DNA from: Alicyclobacillus sp. SP_1
GTDB taxonomy: Bacteria > Bacillota > Bacilli > Alicyclobacillales > Alicyclobacillaceae
Reading direction: 5' to 3'
DNA: 64,000 bases
Assembly (NCBI RefSeq): GCF_024706985.1
Contig: NZ_JAMCCX010000010.1
Coordinates: forward strand, 1 to 64,000
The notes below the pieces were generated by a model. The model had not been told where the DNA came from. It made no database searches and saw only the letters and a list, made by a program, of their open reading frames with translations. Within the stretch, counting starts at the first letter, position 1. Each line of letters begins with the position of its first letter. The translations under genes were made by a program, and so were the position numbers. Of the stretch, positions 14,066 to 27,803 are shown one piece after another.

Positions 14066-15955
14066 TTAGGCCTCGGCAGACACTCCAAGCAGTTCGGCCA
14101 ATTCATCGACCAACGCGTCAAACATCTGCAGCGTGGCTTCGACTGGTTTTGGTGTGGACATATCCACTCCAGCCTTCTGTAACAGCGGAATGGGGTGGTC
14201 GGACCCGCCGCTCTTCAAGAAGGTCAAGTACGGTTGCAATGCCGCGTCCCCCTCTGCCAAAATGCGCTCGGACAGTGCCGTCGCAGCAGACAGCCCTGTT
14301 GCGTACTTGTAGACATAGAAGGCCCGATAAAAATGCGGAATGCGCGACCACTCCCAAGCAATTTTGTCATCCATCACGCAGACTGCACCAAAATACGCGT
14401 CAATGAGCTTACGGTAGGTGTCCGCTAGCCACTCGGGCGTCAGTGCTTCCCCCGCCTCAACGTGGGCGTGGGTCAGCTTTTCGAATTCGGCGAACATCGT
14501 CTGCCGAATGACCGTACCGCGTATTGTCTCCAAATGGTGATTGATGAGTGACGCGCGCACAGACTTGTCCTCGGTCGTCTGTAACAGATGCCGGAACAAG
14601 AGCGACTCATTGCTTGTGGACGCCACTTCAGCCACAAAGATGGTGTAATTGGCATAAACGTGCGGCTGCTCGCGGTGCGAGTAGTAGGAGTGCATCGCAT
14701 GACCTAATTCGTGGGCCAAAGTGAACATGTGATTGAGGGAGTTGTTGTAATTCAGCAGAATGTATGGGTGAACTCCGTACGCCCCCCACGAATATGCGCC
14801 ACTCGTTTTGCCGCGCGTCTCTTGAACGTCTACCCAACCTTCTTCCAGCAATCCGCGACGCGCGGCTTGTAGATAATCAGGGCCGAGCGGATGAAGCGCC
14901 TCGAGCACAGTGTCGACCGCTTTGCGATACGGAATCTTTTCATCGACTTCCGCAACGAGCGGCGTGTAGAGGTCGTAGAAGTGCAGTTCATCGACCTTCA
15001 AGACGCGCTTACGGAGTCGCAGGTATTTGTGCAACGCAGGCAGTGACGAGTGTACCGCGTCAATCAAATGATCATAGACCGAAATCGGCACGTCGTCCGG
15101 ACTCAGTGCCGCTTCTCGCGCGGACGGATAGTTGCGGATTCTTGCATAGAAGCAGTCTTTTTTGACACTCGCCCCATACGTGGCCGCGAGCATATTCTGA
15201 TGCTTTCCATAGGTCGAGTAAACCGCGTCAAATGCCTGCTTGCGCACCTCTCGATTGCGGCTTTCCAAAAATGTCATGTAGCGCCCATGCGTCACTTCTA
15301 CTTTCTTACCCTCTTCATCGGTGATGGAGGGAAAGGTCAAATCGGCATCGTTAAACATGGAAAAAATATTTTGTGGCGCCGACGCAATCTCTTCCGTCTG
15401 GGCGAGAATGGACTCGGCGTCCGTCGAAAGCACGTGTGGCTTTTCTCGGAGGACTTCTTCTACCGCAAATTTATACAAACCTAGGGGTTCGAATTCGTGG
15501 AAAAATTGACGGATGGTCTCTGTCGGAATGGACAGAATCTCCGGCACCAAAAACGCACTCGCACTCTGCAACTGCACCATCAGCATCATCGCTTTGTCCG
15601 CGAGCGCCTGGAACTTGGCATTGCGATTGTCTTCATCCCGACGCATCCGCGCGTACGCAAACAGTCTTGACCCAATTTCATCCAACTCATCTTGAAGTTT
15701 TAATGCAGCATAGAACGACTCTGCAGAATTGCCCAAGGTGCCGGACATCGCCGCCAATTCCGCCAAGCGACCCGTCAACTGTGCCGCATCTTTCTGCCAA
15801 TCTTCGTCGGACGCATAGAGGTCTTCGAGACGCCACTTGTCTTCTGCCGCAACGTCCTTTCGCTCGGGTAACTCATGAGTCGTCTCTGCGCTCGTCTCCG
15901 CCGACGTCAAGTGTTCCAACATCTGCTGACTTTTCATGGACATGAAGATACTCAT
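14066..15955 (-). CDS. pepF: oligoendopeptidase F
   Basis: An M3-family zinc metallopeptidase that cleaves oligopeptides, usually in the cytoplasm. The HExxH motif is in TLAHELGHAMHSYYS, and the downstream glutamate region is VAEVASTSNESLLFRHLL. 629 residues, near the family norm. The ATG at 15955 has GGGGAG eight bases upstream; the longer frame to 16039 overlaps the end of the next gene. The N-terminal 40 residues are Glu/Thr-rich and poorly conserved in type. Confidence 0.93.
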   Translation of the reverse strand: MSIFMSMKSQQMLEHLTSAETSAETTHELPERKDVAAEDKWRLEDLYASDEDWQKDAAQLTGRLAELAAMSGTLGNSAESFYAALKLQDELDEIGSRLFAYARMRRDEDNRNAKFQALADKAMMLMVQLQSASAFLVPEILSIPTETIRQFFHEFEPLGLYKFAVEEVLREKPHVLSTDAESILAQTEEIASAPQNIFSMFNDADLTFPSITDEEGKKVEVTHGRYMTFLESRNREVRKQAFDAVYSTYGKHQNMLAATYGASVKKDCFYARIRNYPSAREAALSPDDVPISVYDHLIDAVHSSLPALHKYLRLRKRVLKVDELHFYDLYTPLVAEVDEKIPYRKAVDTVLEALHPLGPDYLQAARRGLLEEGWVDVQETRGKTSGAYSWGAYGVHPYILLNYNNSLNHMFTLAHELGHAMHSYYSHREQPHVYANYTIFVAEVASTSNESLLFRHLLQTTEDKSVRASLINHHLETIRGTVIRQTMFAEFEKLTHAHVEAGEALTPEWLADTYRKLIDAYFGAVCVMDDKIAWEWSRIPHFYRAFYVYKYATGLSAATALSERILAEGDAALQPYLTFLKSGGSDHPIPLLQKAGVDMSTPKPVEATLQMFDALVDELAELLGVSAEA

Positions 15956-20056: not shown

Positions 20057-22561
20057 ATGCCCCGGCACATGGCTGGAAAAATCGTCAACACTGCCTGCGC
20101 TCTTCTCTGCGGCACAGGCATCACGTACGCATCTCTACACGGACTGCCTGGCATTCCACCACTTGGACCGAGTCTCTCCCCAGCCACTGGTGTCTGGACG
20201 CTCACCCAGACGCAGTCTCTGCTGCCCCACACCGAGACGCTCAAGATACCTGGACTAGAACGCACCGCCTCTGTTCATTTTGGTCCTCATGGTACCGCTT
20301 ACATTCACGCTACCGATGACCGCGACTTGTTTTTCGCCATGGGATACACTCAGGCTACCTTTCGCCTGTTTCAGATGGACCTCGAGCGGCGCCAAGGCGA
20401 AGGCTTATTGTCCCAGATTGTAGGCAAGGAGGCGCTATCCTCCGACGAGTTTGAAGATGAACTCGGGCTGACGCGCACTGCGACGAAAGAGTGGCTCGCA
20501 ATGAAAGCAGACCACCAGGCTCGCGCCGTACTTGAGGCTTTCAGCGCCGGAGTCAATGCGCGCATTGCCCATGATGAGGCGACTCACCACCTTCCGCTCA
20601 TGTTCAAGTTGCTTCATTACAAGCCCGCCACCTGGACTCCCATTGACACACTGGTGATTCAGGGCATCATGACGCAGACGTTGGATTATACAGACACTCC
20701 GGCCCAATACGCGATTCTCGCACACAGTCTAGGGTATGCCCGAACCATGGAGTTTTTCCCTATTCTCCCAAAAGATAAGCAAAGTCCGTACGATCCCGGT
20801 CCATACGCAAAACCAACCGTCAGCGCGGTGCGGGCTGGTGCGAGCTCGCGCGTCAATGCAAGTGAATACCAGGCGATGCTCTCGTTCGCTCACCAAATGG
20901 CGCAAGTGCAGGGCATTTTACACACCTATTCGGACAGCAACAACTGGGCAGTCTCTGGTTCTCGCACGGCATCTGGAAGCGCTTTGATGGCGGGAGACCC
21001 GCACTTAAACCAAACCCTCCCGTCGATTTGGTACCAAGTGGACGCCTCTGCACCGGGATATCACTTCAGTGGCGTTGCCGTTCCTGGGCTCCCCGTCATC
21101 CTCATCGGGCACAATCGTCATATCAGTTGGAGTTTGACGGATGTGCAGAATCAGTCGACGCTTCTGTACAAGGAAGAGACGAGCCGTGCCCATCCGGGCG
21201 ACTACTTCTATAAAGGGGCTTGGCGCCCCTTTCAACGAATTGTCTATGACATCCCTGTCAAAGGCGGAAAGACCGTACACTTACCCGTATCGATTGCCGC
21301 ACAAGGCCCGGTCATGACTCAACACGGCCAGGCGCTTGCTGTCGACTGGATGGGAAACATCCCATCCCCCGACTTGTCCGTCATGTTGCACATCTTACAA
21401 GCGCATAATTTTGCAGAATTTCGCAGCGCACTGTCCAAGTGGTATGCTCCAACGCAAAACTTCGTCTATGCAGACCGTAAAGGAAATATCGGCATGATAT
21501 CCGCTGGATATTATCCCCTCGTTGCAGGCGGCAAACCGTGGCTGCCCTTGTCGGGTACCGGCCCAGACAACGTGGTCGGAAGCATTCCCTACAGCGCCAT
21601 CCCGCAGGTGTACGACCCTCCTAGCGGCTATGTGTTTTCGGCGAATCAGCGGGAGGTGGGTGATAACTATCCGTACTACATCGGAACGACCTACGATTTC
21701 TTTGCGAATGGATACCGGGCGGACGAGATTGCCCACGTGCTCGGAGCGAGTCACCATCTCACGGTCGCCGATATGGAACGTCTGCAGACGACCGTCCGCG
21801 ACTACCTCGCAACGAAAATCGTCCCGGTCTTGTTGCAGGATGAGGCGCATGCGTCGCTCACGCCAAAGGAGCGAGAGGTGGTTCAACTGCTCGCCGACTG
21901 GCACGACCGCATGCGTGCGTCCTCACCTGCGGCCACCGTCTGGTGGACCTTTTGGACGCAATACGTGGCCGACACATTTGGCCCTTGGTGGTCTGCGGAC
22001 CACGTTCCCGTCCAGTCCGACCCAACGCTCGCTCCCACTCCGGCGCTCGCGCCTCTCGATGAAGATTTGCAAGCATGGACGCTGACGGATTCGACGAATC
22101 CAGCTTTTACCCCTCCGCTCGGCGCGCCGCGTACCGCTCAGCAAGTGATGCGACTGGCATTTTCGCAGACGGTCGCGGCTTTGACCAAACAGCTTGGACC
22201 CAATCCATCCACGTGGAAGTGGAAGCGCGTGCACAGTCGCGAATTTCCGTCGCTCGCCAACATCAATGGACTCGGGTACGGCCCTCGTGGCAGTAGTGGC
22301 GATGAGTGGACCGTCAACGCCGCCGATGGATTTCCGATTTCCGAGGCGGGACCGAGTTGGCGGTTTGTCATGAACTGGGCCACTGGCCGAGGATATGGTA
22401 TCTACCCGGGTGGGCAGAGCGAAAACCCGGCTTCGCCTTGGTATGAAGACCAAGTCCCCACGTGGTGGGATGGGCGATATCATCCGATGTTGACGCAAGC
22501 AGAGGCACGCGCGTACCGCGCAGGCGCTGTTTGGACACTCAAACCTGCGGGGAAAGGATGA
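20057..22561 (+). CDS. penicillin acylase family protein
   Basis: An N-terminal nucleophile hydrolase that cleaves amide bonds of penicillins, acyl-homoserine lactones or related N-acyl compounds. The 834-residue precursor has an N-terminal hydrophobic segment (export), an alpha-chain region with GYTQATFRLFQMDLERRQGEG, a spacer, then the autocleavage site before Ser294 in DSNNWAVSGSRTASG. The beta chain includes LMAGDPHLNQTLPSIWYQ and SWSLTDVQNQ, typical of the family. Substrate cannot be told from sequence. The start follows GAGGTGACTTC. The downstream small membrane gene overlaps its stop codon. Confidence 0.88.
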   Translation: MPRHMAGKIVNTACALLCGTGITYASLHGLPGIPPLGPSLSPATGVWTLTQTQSLLPHTETLKIPGLERTASVHFGPHGTAYIHATDDRDLFFAMGYTQATFRLFQMDLERRQGEGLLSQIVGKEALSSDEFEDELGLTRTATKEWLAMKADHQARAVLEAFSAGVNARIAHDEATHHLPLMFKLLHYKPATWTPIDTLVIQGIMTQTLDYTDTPAQYAILAHSLGYARTMEFFPILPKDKQSPYDPGPYAKPTVSAVRAGASSRVNASEYQAMLSFAHQMAQVQGILHTYSDSNNWAVSGSRTASGSALMAGDPHLNQTLPSIWYQVDASAPGYHFSGVAVPGLPVILIGHNRHISWSLTDVQNQSTLLYKEETSRAHPGDYFYKGAWRPFQRIVYDIPVKGGKTVHLPVSIAAQGPVMTQHGQALAVDWMGNIPSPDLSVMLHILQAHNFAEFRSALSKWYAPTQNFVYADRKGNIGMISAGYYPLVAGGKPWLPLSGTGPDNVVGSIPYSAIPQVYDPPSGYVFSANQREVGDNYPYYIGTTYDFFANGYRADEIAHVLGASHHLTVADMERLQTTVRDYLATKIVPVLLQDEAHASLTPKEREVVQLLADWHDRMRASSPAATVWWTFWTQYVADTFGPWWSADHVPVQSDPTLAPTPALAPLDEDLQAWTLTDSTNPAFTPPLGAPRTAQQVMRLAFSQTVAALTKQLGPNPSTWKWKRVHSREFPSLANINGLGYGPRGSSGDEWTVNAADGFPISEAGPSWRFVMNWATGRGYGIYPGGQSENPASPWYEDQVPTWWDGRYHPMLTQAEARAYRAGAVWTLKPAGKG

Positions 22562-25634: not shown

Positions 25635-25685
25635 AGGGCAAACAAGCGCCCTCGCAGATGGTCAACAGAAAGGAGAGATGCCTAC

Positions 25686-25994
25686 ATGGACGCACCAAAC
25701 TGGACGGTCACGGAGCCCGCAGCCGCCTATCTTCGCGACATCCTCGCTGAAGAGCCAAGCTGCCGCCTGCGCATTCTGATGTCCGCTGGCTGAAGCGGTC
25801 CCAGCTATAAGATGGCTCTGGATGAGTCCGTCAACGCGCTCGATATGCAAGTCGAAGAACAAGGCGTGCCATTCGTCTTTCCGGAACATCTCGTCCCCTA
25901 TTTGAATGGCATTACGATAGATTTGGTCGATCACGGTTACGGCCCGGGCATCTCCATCCGCAGACCTGGACCCGTGGAGAAGCCCTCCTGTTGA
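25686..25994 (+). CDS. HesB/IscA-like protein, probable selenoprotein (in-frame UGA)
   Basis: A 102-residue A-type iron-sulfur carrier homologue read through a TGA at 25791-25793 (residue 36). The motif is LMSAG-U-SGPSYKMALDE, in which U stands exactly where HesB/IscA proteins have the conserved cluster cysteine (GCSG). The sequence continues in the same frame without change to VDHGYGPGISIRRPG and a Cys-terminated tail. A family of HesB-like selenoproteins with Sec at this cysteine is established (TIGR01911). AAAGGAG precedes the ATG. A candidate bacterial SECIS follows the UGA. No selA/selB/selC is in the window. The alternative is a Cys-to-stop mutation making a pseudogene. Confidence 0.8.
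25811..25832 (+). promoter_or_regulatory. candidate bacterial SECIS hairpin
   Basis: Starting 18 nt after the UGA, GAUGGCUC can pair with GAGUCCGUC (one bulged C, two G-U pairs) around the loop UGGAU. The apical loop lies 25 nt after UGA and has G as its second base. Both fit the published description of bacterial SECIS elements (G among the first two loop bases, loop 16-37 nt from UGA). Paired by hand, not folded by program. Confidence 0.5.
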
Positions 25995-26006
25995 GGAGGG
26001 CTTCTC
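25977..26006 (+). terminator. terminator of HesB-like gene
   Basis: A perfect 12-bp stem, GAGAAGCCCTCC with GGAGGGCTTCTC, around TGTTGA, followed by a pyrimidine-rich tail. The stem contains the final codons and the stop of the HesB-like gene, showing that transcription and coding extend past the internal UGA. Confidence 0.85.
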
Positions 26007-26061
26007 TCTCTTCATCTCCACCAGAGCGCCAGGCAGCCAATCCACCTGGGAGCCCCATGCG

Positions 26062-26474: not shown

Positions 26475-27803
26475 TCAGCAATCCATTCGCAACAAATCCT
26501 GCCAGGTTTCGCGAGCGACCACAAGGCGACTTTGTCCACCTTGCACAAAGACCACGGCAGGTTTCGGAATGCGATTATAATGACTAGCCATACTATAATT
26601 GTAAGCTCCGGTTGTGAACACCGCGAGAATATCCCCCACCTGCGGCTCCGGCAGCCACACATCTTTGGCAATCATATCGCCACTTTCACAGCATTTACCA
26701 GCGACCGACCACTGCTCCGTCCCCAACTCGTTTGCGCGATTGGCAAGCATCACCTCATACTTCGCGCCGTAGAGCGCAAATCGCGGATTGTCGGTCATAC
26801 CTCCGTCGATGGCGACAAAATTCCGCACCCCATTCACTCGCTTGCGCGCGCCAACTCGGTAGAGTGTGGTCCCAGCATCTGCCACGATGCTCCGTCCCGG
26901 CTCCATTTCGAGAGTCGGCAACGGCAAGTCGTGGAGCGCAAATTCTCGCCTAACCGCTGTCGTCACACCGTCAATCAACGTCTCGAGAGGCAGAGGCGTG
27001 TCCTCATCGGTGTAGCGAACACCAAAGCCGCCACCCAAGTTGAGCGTGTCTACGGGCAAGCCCAAACGAAAGGCATGCGCATAGACGCGAGCCAGCCGTG
27101 CGACCGCAATGTGGAAGCCGGATGCGTCAAATATTTGCGATCCGATATGGCCATGCACCCCACGTAACTCAAGCGCGTCACACGCGGCCACGGCGGCGAC
27201 CGCCGCATCCGCCTGGCCGCTTTCCCAGTCAAATCCAAACTTGCTGTCCTGCTGTCCGGTGGAGATGTACTCATGCGTGTGCGCCTCCACGCCAGGAGCC
27301 ACCCGCAGCAAGATGCGAACGACCTGCCCGCGCGCCTTGGCCAAGCGGTTGAGGCGCTCAATCTCATCCATGTTGTCCACAATAATGGCTCCAATGCGAT
27401 GCTCCAGTGCCAATTCAAGTTCTGCTTCGGTCTTGTTATTGCCGTGAAAATGAATGGCCTCTGGCGGTGCGAGAGCCGCCAGTGCCGTCATCAATTCCCC
27501 GCCCGAGACCACGTCCAGATGGCACCCCTCGGCGAGTGCCAAGTGACACATAGCAACCGTACAAAATGCCTTCGTCGCATAAATGAGGCAATAGGGCATT
27601 GCCGCTTGACGAAGGGCACGGTGAAAACTCTGAATTTGGCGCCGCAAGAGCGCCTCGTCATACACGTAGAGCGGTGTTCCATACTGACTTGCCAAATCGA
27701 CCACATCGCAGTCTGCGATAGTCAAGTGGCCATGCGCACCGACCGCGTGCCCCACACGCAGACGGTCTTCCACAACGACGGGCTGGCTTTGCACCTTGGT
27801 CAT
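26475..27803 (-). CDS. lysA: diaminopimelate decarboxylase
   Basis: The last step of lysine synthesis: PLP-dependent decarboxylation of meso-diaminopimelate. 442 residues. The PLP lysine is in YATKAFCTVAM, with NKTEAELELAL, the glycine-rich phosphate loop LNLGGGFGVRY, EPGRSIVADAGTTLY, and the substrate Cys region GKCCESGDMIAKD. The start ATG follows AAGGAGT. Monocistronic by appearance. Confidence 0.96.
   Translation of the reverse strand: MTKVQSQPVVVEDRLRVGHAVGAHGHLTIADCDVVDLASQYGTPLYVYDEALLRRQIQSFHRALRQAAMPYCLIYATKAFCTVAMCHLALAEGCHLDVVSGGELMTALAALAPPEAIHFHGNNKTEAELELALEHRIGAIIVDNMDEIERLNRLAKARGQVVRILLRVAPGVEAHTHEYISTGQQDSKFGFDWESGQADAAVAAVAACDALELRGVHGHIGSQIFDASGFHIAVARLARVYAHAFRLGLPVDTLNLGGGFGVRYTDEDTPLPLETLIDGVTTAVRREFALHDLPLPTLEMEPGRSIVADAGTTLYRVGARKRVNGVRNFVAIDGGMTDNPRFALYGAKYEVMLANRANELGTEQWSVAGKCCESGDMIAKDVWLPEPQVGDILAVFTTGAYNYSMASHYNRIPKPAVVFVQGGQSRLVVARETWQDLLRMDC

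Follow-up and report, generated by a model that had tools for sequence, protein, structure and literature searches.

A divergent HesB-like gene whose in-frame UGA is very probably decoded as selenocysteine, and the SECIS-like hairpin behind it

The window, by which we mean the whole stretch of 64,000 nucleotides that was analysed, contains a HesB/IscA-like gene with an in-frame UGA at codon 36. The features of this locus, with the evidence for each in parentheses, are as follows.

25686-25994, plus strand: HesB/IscA-like putative selenoprotein gene of 102 aa with an ATG start and a TGA stop (PF01521; IscA fold of the model)
25791-25793, plus strand: UGA codon 36 at the site of the conserved A-type Cys, very probably decoded as selenocysteine (comparison with relatives; sel genes in the genome)
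25811-25832, plus strand: putative bacterial SECIS hairpin with an 8-pair stem, one bulged U and the loop UGGAU (fold; covarying pairs)
25819-25823, plus strand: apical loop UGGAU of the SECIS hairpin (fold; conserved loop Gs)
25670-25675, plus strand: Shine-Dalgarno-like AAGGAG, 10 nt before the ATG (seen in the sequence)
25989-25991, plus strand: codon of the C-terminal Cys102 (column unchanged in all 11 close rows)
25976-26007, plus strand: 14-bp GC-rich hairpin with a broken T-tract (TCTCTCTTC), likely a terminator, overlapping the last codons (fold)

Codon 36 was found in the context SAG-U-SGPSYKMALDES, with the frame open to the TGA at 25992-25994, and the protein contained the U-x-G-P motif as U-S-G-P. 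The sequence-only reading had placed the TGA at 25791 on the Cys of a SAG-C-SG motif and a UGGAU-loop hairpin 25 nt past it. Both placements held, since codon 36 corresponds to the conserved A-type Cys with the frame open on both sides, and the loop lies at 25819-25823 in a hairpin (25811-25832) of -9.0 kcal/mol. Its further statement that the stop codon falls inside a strong terminator stood in part: the stop does lie within a strong 14-bp hairpin, but the T-tract is broken and a terminator scan returned 0 sites at 25976-26007 under the T-tract rule of the tool. The coding region runs into this terminator-like hairpin, so that the C-terminal residues EKPSC are specified by its 5' arm and the edge of its loop. 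Elsewhere in the window, a tmRNA gene at 256-633 on the minus strand was the only Rfam match above the gathering score.

With C in place of selenocysteine (Sec), the window protein scored 34.9 bits against the Pfam family Fe-S_biosyn (PF01521), above the gathering cut-off of 26.3. An AlphaFold2 model built on 37 sequences (pLDDT 89.3) aligned to IscA (1r94) with a Z of 14.0 and an rmsd of 2.0 over 95 residues, consistent with a predicted A-type fold, and to SufA and DsrR with Z of 12.7 and 12.5; ten entries of the fold search had a Z of 6.8 or more, and the next entry stood at 2.4. The gene had been linked from sequence to the family model TIGR01911 (HesB_rel_seleno). What remains of that link is a HesB-like selenoprotein with Sec at the expected site, as the protein reached only 13.2 bits on TIGR01911 (curated cut-off 66.35) and the best-scoring NCBIfam model was instead NF038090 (IscA_HesB_Se), with 48.4 bits (C for Sec, E 9e-13), or 42.3 bits with X at the Sec position of the 102-residue protein, again missing the cut-off of 85. 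TIGR01911 looks narrow, because three other tested UGA proteins, from Geobacter (40.4 bits), Tissierella (50.5 bits) and Alkalihalophilus (47.9 bits), missed its cut-off too. NF038090 is not specific for Sec here, since the Cys-type paralogue of the same genome outscored the window protein on it (67.3 bits); a Desulfobacteraceae UGA protein (L091) passed with 116.1 bits.

The A-type carriers IscA, SufA and ErpA have a C-terminal C-x-C pair in addition to the first Cys. The window protein resembles them in fold and in the position of the first ligand but differs in its putative Sec for Cys and in its tail, which holds only Cys102 and no C-x-C; the tail of the Cys-type paralogue (L052) contains C-x-C, as CGCG. 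The best identity of the window protein to its relatives was 39-41%, depending on the alignment (39% in the 111-row tree set, 40% and 41% in two others). In the tree of these 111 rows, where many forks are open because the columns are few, it stood at the base of a 12-row group with a support of 83/84, which is not strong. Nine other family rows (including the Cys form of G024), one row from the same order (L065) and one from the named genomes (L108) made up the rest of this group, and the UGA-bearing paralogue L051 of the same genome fell outside it. The window gene is thus placed as a divergent addition to the HesB-like selenoproteins already known.

A selenium-containing protein in this organism had been expected to need SelA, SelB, SelC and SelD, and a search of the 3.4-Mb genome (99.98% complete) found all four genes. 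selA (544 bits), selB (375 bits) and selD (392 bits) each scored above their cut-offs, as did the tRNA-Sec gene selC (64 bits), which ARAGORN called as tRNA-SeC(tca), and selD carried its own in-frame UGA, in KAGUGCKLGP. The genetic code is not reassigned, since UGA terminates ordinary genes of the window (20057-22561 and 26475-27803). Nor is Sec kept in this genome for formate dehydrogenase, as the sole alpha subunit above the TIGR01591 cut-off (C28:150784-152790, L208) has no TGA.

The second HesB-like gene of the genome (L051 2328-2630; C19 around 14830-15114) had a UGA at the same codon. Directly behind it we observed a small Cys-rich FmdB-like frame and then two rhodanese-like genes, named by reading of the sequence, and upstream of it a frame that partly matches the formate dehydrogenase alpha subunit (C19:16373-18754). 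At three further loci (L131, L160, L165) a SelA-like gene, so named in the same way, was observed about 2 kb or less from the HesB-like UGA gene. Clustering of the neighbours, up to four for each of 81 named matches and likewise for the window gene and its paralogue, gave no group larger than six.

UGA at the codon-36 site was observed in 9 of 41 family genomes, the window's own included. selA was above its cut-off in 13 of the 41, among them all nine with the UGA, and no UGA homologue was found in the other four (G019, G031, G035, G039). In alignment A1, ten of 11 rows had UGA at the same codon and the eleventh TGT. The comparison of UGA with Cys in relatives that the sequence-only reading had proposed gave UGA in selA-bearing genomes and TGT in a single genome where selA had no match. 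The decay around the UGA that it had named as a contrary sign was not seen, the frames of the relatives being intact there. The TGT-bearing relative in G024 (L024) largely retained the hairpin sequence, and its genome had a tRNA-Sec gene along with no selA match. Because this tRNA gene is kept, the Sec trait has not been cleanly lost, and G024 may be on its way to losing it, as a possible intermediate, or its assembly may have a gap. In G027, the genome that shares the window's genus, there were three A-type matches, all without TGA; neither a UGA homologue nor a selA match turned up, nor a tRNA-Sec at E 1e-8, so there was no near-identical orthologue to compare.

The search was extended to 398 genomes of the class, from which 28 outside the family with a listed UGA match were taken and compared with 28 controls without a listed one. 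selA was above its cut-off in 28 of 28 genomes with a UGA homologue versus 11 of 28 controls (39 of 56 overall), the controls having been chosen rather than drawn at random and possibly holding unlisted weak UGA matches. The DNA was read in all 28 genomes of the first group, and UGA was present at the site in each (17 + 11). TGA was also seen in other A-type genes. In G006, a genome without a selA match, an A-type Cys gene (L053, C1:1317961-1318185) had a TGA at a different codon, likely a nonsense mutation or a sequencing error, and in the A-type matches of G002 and G011 the TGA was the terminal stop. Among mobile elements, tblastn with the window protein hit 3 of the 50,697 phage records and 19 of the 72,556 records for plasmids, in every case below 60% identity; ten of the 19 plasmid matches were listed, at 30.9-34.8% identity, of which six were named as A-type genes and the other four had no feature listed. 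A peptide-pattern scan of the proteins of the named genomes matched 42 stretches, none of which was confirmed.

The hairpin lies 18 to 39 nt past the UGA, and the 30 nt around it fold at -10.5 kcal/mol (z -3.0), with 3 of 200 shuffles as good. According to the legend of Fig. 2 in PMC13188914, the bacterial SECIS model has a loop of 3-9 nt, a stem of 4-16 bp, a G in the first two loop positions, a distance of 16-37 nt from the UGA and a minimum free energy of at most -7.5 kcal/mol. The window hairpin falls within these constraints with its 5-nt loop, G at position 2, eight pairs with one bulge, distance of 25 nt and -9.0 kcal/mol. In alignment A4 (37 rows) column 31 (G25821) was invariant and column 30 (G25820) was conserved in at least 90%, and the distance from UGA to hairpin was kept without gaps in all 37 rows.

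Codon use 3' of the UGA was compared between 27 UGA genes found through protein similarity, the window gene included, and 25 Cys-type homologues. In the UGA genes the core codons were uniform (Ala GCT 22/22, Thr ACT 5/5, Leu CTG 26/26, Glu GAG 27/27), and the Gly and Pro directly after the UGA used four codons each; the Cys-type homologues used several codons for the same Ala and Leu. A set of 48 UGA genes was assembled from these 27, ten from the phylum search and 11 from the class. The core CTCTGGANGAG was exact in 39 of the 48 (31/37 + 8/11), and the three inner stem pairs held in all 48. Pair 28-34 changed from C-G to U-A in three of the 48 (Leu TTG with AAG), two of these rows being nearly alike, and pair 26-36 changed from C-G to U-A in another three (Val GTT with GAA), which came from three related genomes of one family. 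The rows with compensatory changes at pairs 26-36 and 28-34 were L236, L238 and L242 (G149, G169, G139) and L225, L227 and L230. The choice of core codons is not absolute, because a codon changes where its pairing partner changes too.

Two forms of the hairpin, with only part of their pairs in common, were scored on the 37 rows. Without the bulge, 85.3% of cells paired, a slide of one column dropped pairing to 35-50%, and 0 of 500 shuffles, which ignore the relatedness of the rows, reached the covariation score; on one of the five measures, further pair types, the alignment was not above the shuffles (8 versus a mean of 8.3). The bulged form, which is the one used by the window, gave 77.0% pairing, with 45 of 500 shuffles reaching the number of pairs changed on both sides and a higher covariation score at slide -1 (0.178 versus 0.152). 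We read this as a family that uses either form, bulged or unbulged. As judged from these alignments, the hairpin is kept at the RNA level.

A DNA pattern of 36 nt was built from the UGA, x-G-P and the hairpin core. It matched the 3.4-Mb genome at exactly two places, the window gene and its paralogue, and the reversed-pattern control matched at none. The named genomes gave at least 117 stretches, where by our own arithmetic about four would be expected for random sequence of that size. Among the matches listed, 118 of 118 (117 loci) matched the A1 HMM at E 1e-5 or better, and 80 of these loci were from Bacillota, Thermodesulfobacteriota, Myxococcota, Gemmatimonadota, Atribacterota and others. 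Having been chosen by the pattern, the named-genome set is silent on the share of members without the core, which is given for the own phylum by the 48-gene set.

Taken together, the selenoprotein interpretation offered by the sequence-only reading is supported by the sel genes, the UGA in relatives, the restricted codons and the compensatory pairs, and UGA codon 36 of the HesB-like gene is very probably decoded as selenocysteine. Such decoding is indicated because in form and conservation the hairpin matches a bacterial SECIS element and because the genome has selA, selB, selC and selD. In the proposed mechanism, SelB and tRNA-Sec would decode the UGA as Sec, directed by the hairpin at 25811-25832. 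The product would have the IscA fold with Sec replacing the first cluster cysteine and the single terminal Cys102 in place of the C-terminal C-x-C pair of IscA and ErpA. Sec36 and Cys102, probably across a dimer, would then serve to bind or hand on an iron-sulfur cluster or some other soft metal, or may act as a selenol/thiol redox pair. Metal or cluster ligation by these two residues would be the most likely role; we give cluster or metal binding about an even chance, consider a redox function unlikely though plausible, and place any other function last, as improbable.

The cysteine content of relatives bears on this ranking. Among 103 Sec rows, 11 had a C-x-C in the tail, 45 had one tail Cys and 12 had no Cys at all, so that, with Cys content varying in this way, Sec is their one constant chalcogen residue. 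HesB-like Sec proteins free of Cys, in which Sec would be the only thiol-like residue, were observed at L074, L075, L076 and L079 and at eight named loci. An alternative that accepts the Sec reading, and so competes only with the functional part of our explanation, holds that the protein is not a cluster carrier and instead uses the A-type fold for selenol-based redox chemistry or for trapping a metal or metalloid. We regard this as only a little short of an even chance. The absence of C-x-C here and the counts for the 103 rows are in its favour, as are neighbours of some relatives that look rhodanese-like, glutaredoxin-like or CsoR-like on reading of the sequence. Against it, the protein has the fold of A-type carriers and matches them in the residues flanking the site, and a dimer could still coordinate a cluster with a single Sec or Cys from each subunit.

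For the UGA itself, two other explanations were weighed against decoding as Sec. A plain nonsense mutation, leaving a decaying A-type pseudogene or a 35-residue peptide, is very improbable; the G006 gene, with its TGA at another codon and no selA match in the genome, offers a precedent, but a pseudogene is rejected because relatives in the family, class and phylum and the named genomes have their UGA at this very codon in a frame that stays intact, because restricted codons and compensatory pairs follow the UGA, and because the genome has the Sec genes. Insertion of another amino acid such as Trp or Cys, by reassignment or leaky read-through, would fit the frame open on both sides of the UGA but is the least probable of all and is rejected in view of the ordinary window genes that end in UGA, the tRNA-Sec with anticodon tca and the constant, gap-free distance of the hairpin in 37 rows.

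Read as a selenoprotein gene, the locus belongs with a family that is already listed in PMC13188914 and PMC9312934, the former giving the motif UxGP in its Table 1; Table 1 of PMC1794560 counts 11 HesB-like selenoproteins. The window gene is like this family in its A-type fold, the putative Sec at the conserved Cys, the U-x-G-P motif and a SECIS element just downstream, and unlike it in its low score on TIGR01911 (13.2 bits against 66.35); the nearest model, NF038090, is also one whose cut-off it misses. The Fig. 4 legend of PMC1794560 describes a Cys-form HesB-like protein with a remnant SECIS in Desulfitobacterium hafniense, which the G024 relative resembles in having TGT and most of the hairpin sequence left, whereas the gene of the window is of the Sec type. 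For the HesB-like protein of M. maripaludis, PMC11097638 describes discovery through mutagenesis and 75Se labelling, calls the function not clear and cites, as an unpublished observation, that a mutant still fixed nitrogen. In the parts of the literature covered by our search no statement was found that the SECIS of the family is nearly fixed in sequence, and we do not claim priority for this.

On a broader view, which we put forward tentatively and with some doubt, HesB-like selenoproteins may form a separate A-type branch where Sec serves as the only or the principal ligand of a metal or cluster, with a SECIS nearly fixed in sequence across phyla since the same 12 nt encode a conserved A/T-L-D/E-E, and with the 36-nt DNA pattern alone retrieving much of the family. 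With this locus the family gains a divergent selenoprotein that falls below the cut-offs of both nearest curated models and whose frame a gene caller would end at the UGA, and the nearly sequence-fixed SECIS core of the gene and its relatives provides a simple DNA test for the family. The locus also raises the testable question of whether one selenocysteine may do the job of three cysteines in an A-type protein.
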